A stretch of 64,000 nucleotides of DNA from Aromatoleum aromaticum EbN1 (GTDB taxonomy: Bacteria > Pseudomonadota > Gammaproteobacteria > Burkholderiales > Rhodocyclaceae): the NCBI RefSeq assembly GCF_000025965.1, contig NC_006513.1, forward strand, positions 806,001 to 870,000, given 5' to 3'. Position 1 is the first letter of the stretch; each line of letters begins with the position of its first letter. The notes beneath the pieces are model-generated. The model saw only the letters and a list, made by a program, of their open reading frames with translations, was not told the origin of the DNA and searched no databases. The position numbers and the translations under genes are program-made. This document shows positions 34,031-39,063 of the stretch, in pieces.

Positions 34031-34069
34031 TTTATCATGCCATCAGCATCACGCCGATGGCATGATAAA
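34031..34069. repeat. Perfect 14-bp inverted repeat upstream of the GGDEF-EAL gene
   Basis: TTTATCATGCCATC (34031-34044) and GATGGCATGATAAA (34056-34069) are exact reverse complements with an 11-base spacer. The arm ends on the first base of the possible ATG at 34031. It could be an operator or an mRNA hairpin controlling translation. Apart from this and the border repeats, the gap 33972-34359 holds no convincing gene. Confidence 0.6.
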
Positions 34070-34176: not shown

Positions 34177-34217
34177 TGTGACCGCCCCGAGCAGCGGGGC
34201 GGGCTACGGTAGTCACA
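34177..34217. repeat. Nested inverted repeats around the left 12-bp border copy
   Basis: TGTGAC (34177-34182) pairs with GTCACA (34212-34217), and inside it CCGCCCC (34182-34188) pairs with GGGGCGG (34196-34202). The outer arm includes the end of the 12-bp border repeat. This may be an attachment-site structure or a leftover terminator. Confidence 0.45.
34203..34214 (-). repeat. Left border copy of the argJ-end 12-mer (attL candidate)
   Basis: GCTACGGTAGTC is identical to the argJ 3' end at 37828-37839. The reverse strand reads GAC TAC CGT AGC, as in argJ codons D-Y-R-S, but no stop follows. The frame runs on to 34035. This does not look like a normal pre-insertion argJ end, so the site may have been rearranged or be a nested remnant. 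Confidence 0.5.
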
Positions 34218-34273
34218 CAACAGATATGCAACCCGATGACGACGCTACGTTTTCAGCCAGGCTAAACCGCCTT

Positions 34274-34294
34274 GTTACTCTCAACCTTACTCAC
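34274..34294. repeat. Left-end integrase-type repeat
   Basis: GTTACTC-TCA-ACCTTACTCAC contains two TTACTC units. It matches the right-end copy at 37696-37716 at 19 of 21 positions in the same orientation. It is either an arm-type recombinase site or part of the attachment core. Confidence 0.55.
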
Positions 34295-34359
34295 ATTCGC
34301 CATCGCTGCCTTCAAAAACCCCCTCACCCGCTCTATACCTCCGCCCGATCACAAAAGAG

Positions 34360-34668
34360 CTAAGGCGCGCCGTCGATTTCCTTGTGCGTGCCGATCCGGC
34401 GGAGAATTGCAGTACCCCCGTCGATTTCGAACGAGAGCTTGTGCGAATGATTCGGGGTGACGTGGACCGTGTGGATGCTCGGCCTTCGATACCCACCCAA
34501 CTTCTCAAAGCGAAGCATGGGAGACCGGGGATTCTTAGTGAGGTTGAGGAGCACAGTATCAACCTTCCCCTGGAGGCCGTGATCGAGGCGCTTATAGTCA
34601 CGCTCAAATCGCCCGGTCATGGCAAGGCGGCGGATGACGACTCCGCCGTTTTGGTGCTCCTGCCTCAT
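34360..34668 (-). CDS. RelE/ParE-like toxin
   Basis: A 102-aa basic protein with the RelE/ParE layout. Two N-terminal helices (about 18-45, GRFERDYKRLDHGLQGKVD) are followed by a beta sheet with KLGGYRRPSIHTVHV, HKLSFEIDGGTAILRRIG and a terminal THKEID. The late HKLSF and RRIGTH strands are where mRNA-cleaving toxins carry basic and His residues. The start overlaps the upstream gene stop as ATGA (34665-34668), giving tight coupling. It is the last gene of the island. The activity (ribosome-dependent mRNA cleavage) is inferred from fold class only. Confidence 0.7.
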   Translation of the reverse strand: MRQEHQNGGVVIRRLAMTGRFERDYKRLDHGLQGKVDTVLLNLTKNPRSPMLRFEKLGGYRRPSIHTVHVTPNHSHKLSFEIDGGTAILRRIGTHKEIDGAP

Positions 34669-35165
34669 CCCGCTTTTAGCAGGGAGAGCATTTGTTCAAC
34701 TGAACTGAACGGTCCGCTAACTGGTGACAAGTCGGCGTCGTGCTCCATGATCGCCCAGCGAAGCGCGGTCATGGCGGAGTGGAGATGTTGAAATGCCTCG
34801 ATGGTCTCGTCGTAAGCGCTAAGGACGCAGGCCTCGTGCTCACCCCCGAGTTCGCGATCTTTGACCCCTGATTGTCGCCGAATACGAAATTGCTCGATCA
34901 GACGCTCGATGGCATTTTCGGCGTTGTGAATGGTATCGGCCGTAATGTCATCGGGGTCAATCTCGTCTTGTGGCTCTGCCTTGCAGATCAGGTCGGCAAA
35001 ACGCTCAGCCTTTGCTGCAGCAGTTTGAGCCTCATCGGAAAGAGTGGTGAGCCAGTCGACGACGCCATCGACGGCGCGCAGCAGTGTGAGGTTCGCAGTG
35101 CAACTATCTGACACCACGTCGCAAAACTGGTGCACAGCCTCCGGACCTCTTAGCTTAATGTTCAT
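34665..35165 (-). CDS. Putative antitoxin with unusual long helical N-terminal part
   Basis: A 166-aa acidic, mostly helical protein just upstream of the RelE/ParE-like gene and overlapping it by 4 bases. Residues about 1-138 match nothing I recognise. The final segment (140-166, EHDADLSPVSGPFSSVEQML plus SLLKAG) resembles the toxin-wrapping tail of RelB/Phd-type antitoxins. No HTH, ribbon-helix-helix or AbrB domain is visible. The ATG at 35165 is preferred over 35171 because GGAG then lies 9 bases upstream. If it is an antitoxin, this is a non-standard architecture. Confidence 0.6.
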   Translation of the reverse strand: MNIKLRGPEAVHQFCDVVSDSCTANLTLLRAVDGVVDWLTTLSDEAQTAAAKAERFADLICKAEPQDEIDPDDITADTIHNAENAIERLIEQFRIRRQSGVKDRELGGEHEACVLSAYDETIEAFQHLHSAMTALRWAIMEHDADLSPVSGPFSSVEQMLSLLKAG

Positions 35166-35248
35166 TCGCATTCACTCCATATCACCGTCCTACACGGGCG
35201 GTTCCGCTTTCGATTGAGCGGATTTGGTCACTACTCATCCCACAACAA

Positions 35249-35267
35249 GGCCCGCAAAGCGCGGGCC
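35249..35267 (-). terminator. Putative terminator between island genes
   Basis: GGCCCGC-AAAGC-GCGGGCC forms a 7-bp stem. On the minus strand it is followed by TTGTTGT. It lies downstream of the 35437-35844 gene and upstream of the antitoxin-like gene, so the pair probably has its own promoter in 35166-35248. That stretch and 35268-35436 show no other gene. Confidence 0.5.
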
Positions 35268-35436
35268 AATCGGGAAGGTCTTGCCATACTTGAGAGTATA
35301 GCCACCGACTCCGATGACGTCAGCTCAGTGTTGCGGATGGACAACGGAAGCGACGGCCAGTTCTGGAATGTTGAAACGTCTTAAGCCGAACCATACGTAG
35401 TTCTTTCTGGAGAAAAACGTGGCGCTCTTTCTACCC

Positions 35437-37642: not shown

Positions 37643-37721
37643 AAAAAGTGAGTAATCCGGGCGTTACTCACACCCGAACGAGAGTAACGCTGCTCGTTAC
37701 TCGCTACCTTACTCACTTTTT
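37643..37721. repeat. Nested TTACTC/GAGTAA repeat array upstream of the integrase gene
   Basis: Five TTACTC-type units lie in 79 bases. AAAAAGTGAGTAA (37643-37655) is the exact inverse of TTACTCACTTTTT (37709-37721). GCGTTACTC (37661-37669) is the inverse of GAGTAACGC (37682-37690), and GTTACTC recurs at 37696. The array starts 14 bases before the integrase ATG. It probably binds integrase or an excision factor and covers the int promoter. Related units occur at the left end. Confidence 0.65.
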
Positions 37722-37824: not shown

Positions 37825-39063
37825 CTAGCTACGGTAGTCGGCGTTGATCTTCACGTAGTCGTACGAAAAATCGCATGTCCATACGGTTGCCCGTGCACGG
37901 CCCCGTCCGAGATCGACACGCACGGTGATCTCGGCTTCCTTCATCACCCGGACGCCGTCCTCCTCGCGGTAGGTCGGGGCGCGGCCGCCGAGTTCGGCGA
38001 CAAGTACCTCTTCGGCGGCGGTTCCAAGCCACACCCGTAGGCCTCCGACGTCCAGGTCCTGGATGCCGGCATAGCCGATCGCGGCGAGAATGCGGCCGAG
38101 GTTCGGGTCCGAGGCGAAGAACGCGGTCTTGACGAGCGGCGACTGGCCGATCGCGTACGCCACTTTGCGGCATTCAACGACGTCGAGACCGCCTTCGACA
38201 GCGATCGTCATGAATTTGGTCGCGCCTTCGCCGTCGCGGACGATCGCCTGCGCGAGCCGGATCGACACGTCGATGACTGCGTCGCGCAGCGCGTGGAAAT
38301 CCGACCCGAGCGGGTCGGCGATCTCGGCGTTGCCGGCCTGGCCGGTGGCGACGACGATGAACGAGTCGTTGGTCGAGGTGTCGCCATCGACCGTGATGCT
38401 GTTGAACGACAGATCCGCGGCCTCCTTCGTCAGCGCATCGAGCAAGGCCTGGGAGACGGCGGCGTCGCAGGCGAGAAAGCCGAGCATCGTCGCCATGTTC
38501 GGCTTGATCATGCCGGCGCCCTTGCTGATGCCGGTCAAGGTGACGGTGCGACCGCCGATCTCGACCTGCCGCGACACCGCTTTCGCCAGCGTGTCGGTCG
38601 TCATGATGGCGTGCGCCGCGTCGAACCAGCCGTCCTCGCGCAAATCCGCGTGCGCCGCGGGCAGCCCGGCGATCAGGCGGTCGACAGGCAGCGCTTCGAG
38701 GATCACGCCGGTCGAGAACGGCAGCACCTGCTCGGGCGCGACGCCCAGGGTGCGGCCGACCGCGACGCAGGTCGCGTGGGCGTCCGCCAACCCCTGTTCG
38801 CCGGTGCCCGCGTTCGCAACGCCGGTATTGATAACCAGCGCGCGCACGTCGCCGCCGGCGATGTGCTGCTTGCACAGCTGCACCGGCGCCGCGCAGAAGC
38901 GGTTGAGGGTGAACACACCGGCGACGCGGCTGCCGGCGGCAAGTTCGATCAGCGTCAGGTCACGCCGGTTGGCCTTGCGGATCCCGGCCTCCGCGACCCC
39001 GACGCGAACGCCGGGCACCGGAAGGAGATCGGACGGCTGCACAGCGATCAGATTCACAGGCAT
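37825..39063 (-). CDS. argJ: Glutamate N-acetyltransferase/amino-acid acetyltransferase ArgJ
   Basis: A 412-aa bifunctional arginine-pathway enzyme that moves acetyl from N-acetylornithine to glutamate and can acetylate glutamate from acetyl-CoA. It is made as a precursor that self-cleaves at Ala-Thr in [14 protein letters not shown]. The N-terminal chain and Thr-starting beta chain are both complete. The last codons D-Y-R-S plus TAG coincide with the proposed attachment core of the island, but the protein end (VKINADYRS) is intact. Confidence 0.95.
37828..37839 (-). repeat. Right border copy of the argJ-end 12-mer (attR candidate)
   Basis: GCTACGGTAGTC encodes the last four sense codons of argJ in reverse. 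The same 12 bases occur at 34203-34214 in the same orientation, at the far side of the integrase element. Confidence 0.5.

Follow-up and report, generated by a model that had tools for sequence, protein, structure and literature searches.

We analysed a 64,000-nucleotide stretch of the genome of Aromatoleum aromaticum EbN1 (contig NC_006513.1, positions 806,001 to 870,000), hereafter called the window, in whose own numbering all coordinates are given. Two open reading frames (ORFs) on its minus strand encode an acidic protein of 166 amino acids (34665..35165), a putative antitoxin that we call the partner, and a RelE-superfamily toxin-like protein of 102 amino acids (34360..34668). The partner stop codon and the toxin start codon share an ATGA overlap (34665..34668, minus strand), and the two products carry net charges of -16 and +8, respectively. 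A sequence-only reading of this DNA had described a RelE/ParE-like gene overlapping an acidic helical gene in this way, and both ORFs, the charge and the helical model given below bear the description out. An alternative partner start lies two codons earlier, at 35171; because this first ATG is absent in the Aromatoleum toluvorans copy, the 166-residue start is preferred. The window and A. toluvorans proteins are 79% (partner) and 83% (toxin) identical, and the proportions of nonsynonymous (pN) and synonymous (pS) differences are 0.138 and 0.762 for the partner and 0.108 and 0.752 for the toxin. Changes in both are thus mostly silent, and therefore both are coding genes under purifying selection. 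The nearest named relatives are those of A. toluvorans and A. buckelii, the partner of the latter being 99% identical to that of the window, and the partner is present as a single copy in the window's own genome.

The association between the two genes was examined from both sides. Starting from the partner, a single genome scan was followed by draws of 398 genomes of the phylum, 199 of the family and 399 of the order. The genome scan gave five loci with partner relatives, whose best segments are 99 to 27% identical, in two Aromatoleum genomes and in metagenome-assembled genomes of Desulfobacterales, a gammaproteobacterium and Alcaligenaceae; a RelE-like ORF of 96 to 102 amino acids lies directly downstream in all five. 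The phylum draw matched the partner in the window's own genome only, the family draw in four genomes (its own and three others, each with an adjoining toxin) and the order draw in six (its own and five others, again each with the toxin). The sequence-only reading had named homologues standing mostly without a toxin gene as contrary evidence; instead, a toxin-like ORF adjoins the partner in 13 of the 13 loci found in this way besides the window.

Starting from the toxin, three scans of viral contigs with toxin alignments yielded 19 distinct loci. A partner profile (A1) built from the window and five partner-found loci (6 sequences) was run on the 989 ORFs of at least 60 amino acids in these loci. 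Its 17 best matches (E 4.3e-37 to 3e-5) are the ORFs directly upstream of the toxin in 17 different loci, and the 18th (E 0.071) occupies the same position at L042. An earlier scan of viral contigs with the partner alignment A1 found no relative, although the toxin-based scans later found some.

In the order draw (399 genomes), the toxin profile matched 12 genomes at E<=1e-5, and the six matches below 1e-27 belong to the six genomes with a partner. Two intermediate matches, L055 (E 1.8e-13) and L056 (E 1.0e-12), have upstream ORFs of 175 and 187 amino acids, which end in LRWAVLEHDAEV and AQWKITEHDANL and retain an EHDA motif. These diverged partners are unlisted at E<=1e-5 in the order-wide partner search; within their loci, both the A1 and A7 profiles rank them as the best ORF (A1: E 1.4e-5 and 1.1e-6). 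Judged by sequence, L055 and L056 are a bridge to a wider superfamily. The weaker matches L057, L059 and L061 have partners of 82 to 91 amino acids that match Pfam Phd/YefM below the cut-off (E 2.4e-4 to 1.7e-6), and neither L058 nor L060 has a partner of the helical kind. Six further weak toxin matches have upstream ORFs of 57 to 95 amino acids; the five scanned comprise three Phd-like proteins, one ParD-like protein (4e-15) and one without a match (L019, at a contig end). In a draw of 369 genomes of the class, L037 has the partner (A1 E 3e-8) beside a toxin with an altered end. In tblastn searches, none of 72,556 plasmids matched the window partner, the window toxin or the toxins of three relatives; an ordinary RelE toxin (L021), used as a control, matched three plasmids, so the search itself works. 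No match for the window toxin or two relatives' toxins was found by tblastn in 50,697 phage records, a search run with toxins only and without a control, and the DNA of the L041 pair had no match in Escherichia coli genomes.

The arrangement of the genes is that of a type II module, in which adjacent, co-directional and often overlapping genes are headed by the one in the antitoxin position. Among 34 tabulated pairs (L035, L037 and L038 left out), 17 overlap by exactly four nucleotides; 33 lie between a nine-nucleotide gap and a four-nucleotide overlap, and the remaining one overlaps by 20 nucleotides. A tree was computed for 38 toxins, namely 32 with a helical or diverged helical partner and six RelE/ParE toxins whose small partners are Phd-like, ParD-like or unclassified. 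A branch with 100/100 support, itself long (4.7), parts the two sets; the placement of L020, at the end of a very long branch, is unsure.

The 102-residue protein is predicted to adopt the RelE/YoeB/YafQ fold, with two helices followed by an antiparallel sheet. A structure search with this model retrieved 29 PDB chains at E<=0.001, including RelE, YafQ, YoeB and the Helicobacter pylori toxin/HP0892/HP0894 entries, and a profile of the toxin family (26 sequences) matched MjRelE (3bpq_B, E 8.3e-5). The E-values of the window toxin to Pfam ParE, YafQ and ParE-like are 0.024 to 0.048. Among 21 family toxins including that of the window, 4, 6 and 7 match these three families, respectively, at E<=0.1 (best 4.1e-5). 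Because its own Pfam matches lie below the cut-offs, we assign the window toxin to the RelE superfamily by its relatives and its predicted fold. An alignment of 26 sequences, that of the window among them, shows no variation at F21, L43, P47, N73, A87, R90, H95 and D99, and the C-terminal consensus reads LRRxxTHKxIDRxP. Going by residue numbering, the conserved arginine and histidine may correspond to R83 and H87 of YafQ. The fold, the basic charge and these two residues near the C-terminus suggest that the toxin is most likely a ribosome-dependent mRNA-cleaving enzyme. At L010 (4986-6155), a toxin relative has lost the C-terminal motif and is read on into unrelated sequence; the frame of its partner remains open.

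Searches of Pfam, NCBIfam, PHROGs and PADLOC gave no significant match for the partner; the window protein (P0002) hits no Pfam family even at E<=1. Among 23 homologues, each Pfam, PHROG or NCBIfam match at E<=0.1 is confined to a single member, and no known antitoxin family is among them: ribbon-helix-helix (RHH)/RelB/ParD, Phd/YefM, helix-turn-helix (HTH) and AbrB/MazE domains all went unrecognised. By comparison, six weak toxin matches have small partners that do hit Phd (E 5e-4 to 1.7e-6), and one has a partner that hits ParD_like (4e-15). The sequence-only reading had seen no known DNA-binding antitoxin domain in the partner and had suggested a new antitoxin family; the first statement holds as far as these searches reach, and the second is well supported by comparison, one RelE-fold toxin group being paired with partner homologues that belong to no family in the four libraries. 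The predicted model (predicted local distance difference test score 86.7) is all helical, consisting of a long three-helix bundle (residues 8-62, 74-102 and 108-146) and a short C-terminal helix (156-165). It contains no strand, which speaks against the RHH, Phd and AbrB folds, and the bundle may still bind DNA. Conservation peaks at residues 21-40, 111-120 and 131-160, and positions 24, 26, 28, 29, 32, 35, 106 and 118 belong to the 25 most conserved; Tyr118, Trp137 and Glu141 are kept in 23, 22 and 24 of 27 aligned partners. By helix register, the conserved positions 24-35, Leu106 and Tyr118 would sit at the bundle end distal to the tail, where they may form a dimer or sensing surface.

The C-terminal segment of the partner (residues 133-166; 34668..34769, minus strand), which contains TALRWAIMEHDAD and GPFSSVEQMLSLL, is the proposed toxin-binding tail. 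A profile of these residues was run on the 45-residue tails of 24 antitoxin-like ORFs and of 399 long ORFs (7 from the family itself and 392 unrelated). Outside the family, the two highest scores belong to antitoxins: 14.8 bits for the Phd-like protein paired with the L061 toxin and 7.7 bits for the RelB of the window's genome (L078). The best of the 392 unrelated tails scored 5.0 bits. By eye, F-S-S-x-E-x-(L/M)-L-x-x-L is common to the L061 Phd-like partner and the window partner. A rank test on these scores (p 5e-7) was discarded, since unscored tails had been given an arbitrary low value and some background ORFs may not be genes. In sequence, the tail modestly resembles the toxin-binding tails of Phd and RelB. 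The earlier proposal of an antitoxin-like tail is thus modestly supported by one Phd and one RelB protein, but not by the other antitoxin-like ORFs, whose scores are given below.

We interpret the locus, with a probability of about 0.77, as a type II toxin-antitoxin pair in which the antitoxin combines a neutralising tail of the ordinary kind with a new helical domain. The upstream gene would be translated first and, coupled by the overlap, yield the acidic antitoxin, and the downstream gene would yield a RelE/YoeB/YafQ-type toxin. About 33 C-terminal residues of the antitoxin (the end of helix 3, an EHDAD loop and the short last helix) would bind and block the toxin, as the tails of Phd and RelB do, and the elongated three-helix bundle, from a family outside the searched libraries, would replace the usual DNA-binding and dimerisation domain. 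Conserved pairing of the genes, the fold prediction for the toxin, a partner outside known families and selection on both genes come directly from the data. We infer that the downstream product is toxic, that the partner neutralises it and binds it through the tail, and that autoregulation by the antitoxin has been lost. The partner is considered the antitoxin because of its position, its charge and its coupling to the toxin. All 24 pairs compared unite an acidic partner (net charge -7 to -24) with a basic toxin (+2 to +12); the opposite charges and the conserved tail are compatible with binding and neutralisation, no more. Partner and toxin distances are correlated (r 0.67, Mantel p 0.0002; 24 pairs, A. 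buckelii being left out as a near copy), in part through common descent.

That shared descent is one of several points that weigh against this interpretation. The window toxin falls below every curated Pfam cut-off (ParE 15.6 bits against 23, YafQ 15 against 30 and ParE-like 14.1 against 28). The 19th viral locus, L035, holds a toxin remnant of which the last residues alone are kept, and L038, a toxin-profile match from the class draw (E 4.9e-9), has no helical partner. The EHDAD motif is not universal, His142, Asp143 and Asp145 being present in 19, 15 and 23 of the 27 aligned partners, and it is lost in L008 and L032, which retain the pairing with the toxin. In the tail comparison, the other 22 of the 24 antitoxin-like ORFs scored at most 1.6 bits, so that the likeness rests on two members of a small set, some of which are probably miscalled.

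The absence of the EHDAD motif from two partners that are still paired would also be expected if the partner neutralised the toxin mainly through its helical bundle, acting as a folded inhibitor, and the tail were only an accessory or a degradation signal. The conserved N-terminal positions listed above fit this explanation, as do the N-terminal distances, which correlate with toxin distances no less than the tail distances do (r 0.62 and 0.60). However, the tail bears some likeness to known antitoxin tails, and an EHDA motif persists in the diverged partners at L055 and L056; we consider a folded inhibitor rather unlikely. The bundle also has look-alikes among BAG and prefoldin entries, with Z values that may reflect a common arrangement only, and long helical proteins are common among chaperones. 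HigBAC is a three-part toxin-antitoxin system, and the partner could correspondingly be a chaperone or third component whose true antitoxin is encoded elsewhere. This is very improbable, as no recurrent third gene was seen, albeit without a systematic search: the next downstream genes are an M78 peptidase at L004, an ORF without a Pfam match at L005 and, about 600 nucleotides further on, a DUF4145 gene at L009.

A RelE fold by itself is no proof of toxicity, and the pair might be a regulatory or RNA-processing unit of prophages whose RelE-fold protein is no longer a toxin; viral contigs account for 19 loci, and integrases stand beside several copies. Against this stand the invariance of R90, H95 and D99 and the mean pairwise identity, which is higher for the toxin (0.45) than for the partner (0.26-0.32). 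Moreover, the end of the toxin is lost in L010, and perhaps in L037, with the partner still open, as is expected of a toxic protein. A non-toxic unit of this kind therefore appears improbable, and we retain the toxin-antitoxin pair with a tailed helical antitoxin as the preferred explanation.

Upstream of the partner lies a promoter-like site, CTGACG-17-TATACT (35295..35323, minus strand), both hexamers of which are kept in the diverged A. toluvorans copy. It is followed by a leader (35198..35267, minus strand) with a GC hairpin (35267-35249) and a 29-nucleotide block (35198-35226) identical in A. toluvorans. The 141-nucleotide RNA from 35290 to 35150 folds better than shuffled sequences (z -2.36; one in 200 shuffles equals it). 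Conservation of the leader was observed in the window, A. buckelii and A. toluvorans only, and we therefore do not propose a riboregulator. A shared operator or leader RNA was also considered and rejected, as inspection by eye found no block common to the upstream regions of six groups of relatives. In A. buckelii (L002:3430-4755), an IS256-like transposase, named from its sequence, lies about 245 nucleotides upstream of the partner and splits a region that is continuous in the window.

A tyrosine integrase gene (PF00589, PF22022 and PF13356; 36382..37716, minus strand), the probable vehicle of the pair, is located 1.2 kilobases (kb) from it and abuts the 3' end of argJ, whose stop codon is at 37825-37827. 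Two exact copies of the 12-nucleotide direct repeat GCTACGGTAGTC on the plus strand, candidate attachment sites, lie at 34203..34214 and, within the 3' end of argJ, at 37828..37839. Allowing one mismatch, the 12-mer has just these two matches in the 64 kb (0.06 expected); it is missing from L003 and differs at one position in L002. A second repeat of 27 nucleotides (85% identical) is found at 34271-34297 and 37693-37719. The 3.6 kb between the 12-mers contain the integrase, two ORFs without a Pfam match (E<=0.001) and the toxin/partner pair, and the segment 34197-37839 is probably a mini-island of about 3.6 kb at the argJ 3' end. Three genomes of the same genus have argJ, with no GGDEF-EAL match following in the roughly 1.5 kb examined; because no empty site was found, insertion at argJ is proposed from the integrase position and the direct repeats only. 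Elsewhere, an integrase (PF00589) occurs in 11 of the 18 viral records searched (out of 19). By coordinates, the pair is separated from an integrase domain by about 0.4, 2 and 2.4 kb in L028, L042 and G520, respectively, and by at least 10 kb in others such as L009, L025 and L034. Between the toxin and GGDEF-EAL genes, at the start of the GGDEF-EAL ORF, there is a 17-nucleotide inverted repeat (94%) with a five-nucleotide loop (34031-34069). The window's genome is rich in ordinary toxin-antitoxin genes, with 16 Phd/YefM matches (12 over the cut-off), one RelB and eight ParE.

A tentative extension, which we regard as possible but doubtful, is that the helical bundle acts as a sensor, in line with the fused sensor domain that the sequence-only reading had offered as an alternative. 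In prophages and mini-islands it would recognise a phage or stress product and free the tail from the toxin, thereby halting translation in the infected cell, so that the pair would be a triggered abortive-infection switch and no autoregulated addiction module.

Few bacterial toxins have been studied as well as those of the RelE type, whose partners are regarded as small proteins that bind DNA and also regulate their own operon. A RelE-type toxin group with a long helical partner lacking a recognised DNA-binding domain raises the question of how such an operon is regulated and what role the additional domain plays. The profiles from this analysis could also let databases name both proteins, which the searched libraries do not. 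A full-text search of the open-access literature found no helical-bundle partner of RelE, which is weak evidence of absence, and the TASmania table of putative new antitoxin groups contains no such family as far as its descriptions go (PMC6504116). RHH, Phd or HTH antitoxins are described as typically repressing their own promoter (PMC4803016); the partner has no recognised domain of these kinds and is strongly acidic.

The window toxin shares with YafQ, YoeB and RelE the fold, the size, the basic charge, the arginine and histidine near the C-terminus and a gene position downstream of the partner. It differs in standing, with its group, apart from the six other RelE/ParE toxins in the tree, in the LRRxxTHKxIDRxP consensus and in its Pfam scores below the cut-offs. 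Like Phd/YefM and RelB/DinJ antitoxins, the partner is encoded upstream and has a helical C-terminal tail. In contrast to them, it has 166 residues rather than the 82 to 95 of the Phd-like partners seen here, belongs to no recognised Phd, RHH, HTH or AbrB family and has a predicted three-helix bundle in its N-terminal 130 or so residues. No Panacea family, which Pfam contains, was among the Pfam matches here, and one toxin group goes with one partner family. In these respects the pair differs from the Panacea-containing antitoxins, with which it shares the idea of linking a neutralising segment to a further domain that may act as a sensor; the netFlax study describes the fusion of neutralising segments with other domains and leans towards a sensor role for Panacea (PMC10440598). 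The MJ1172-type (COG7997) antitoxins of RelE toxins, predicted by Makarova et al. 2009, are likewise a new RelE partner proposed from gene neighbourhood, but they are described there as strand-helix-helix RHH proteins of methanogens, whereas the window partner has no predicted strand (PMC2701414).
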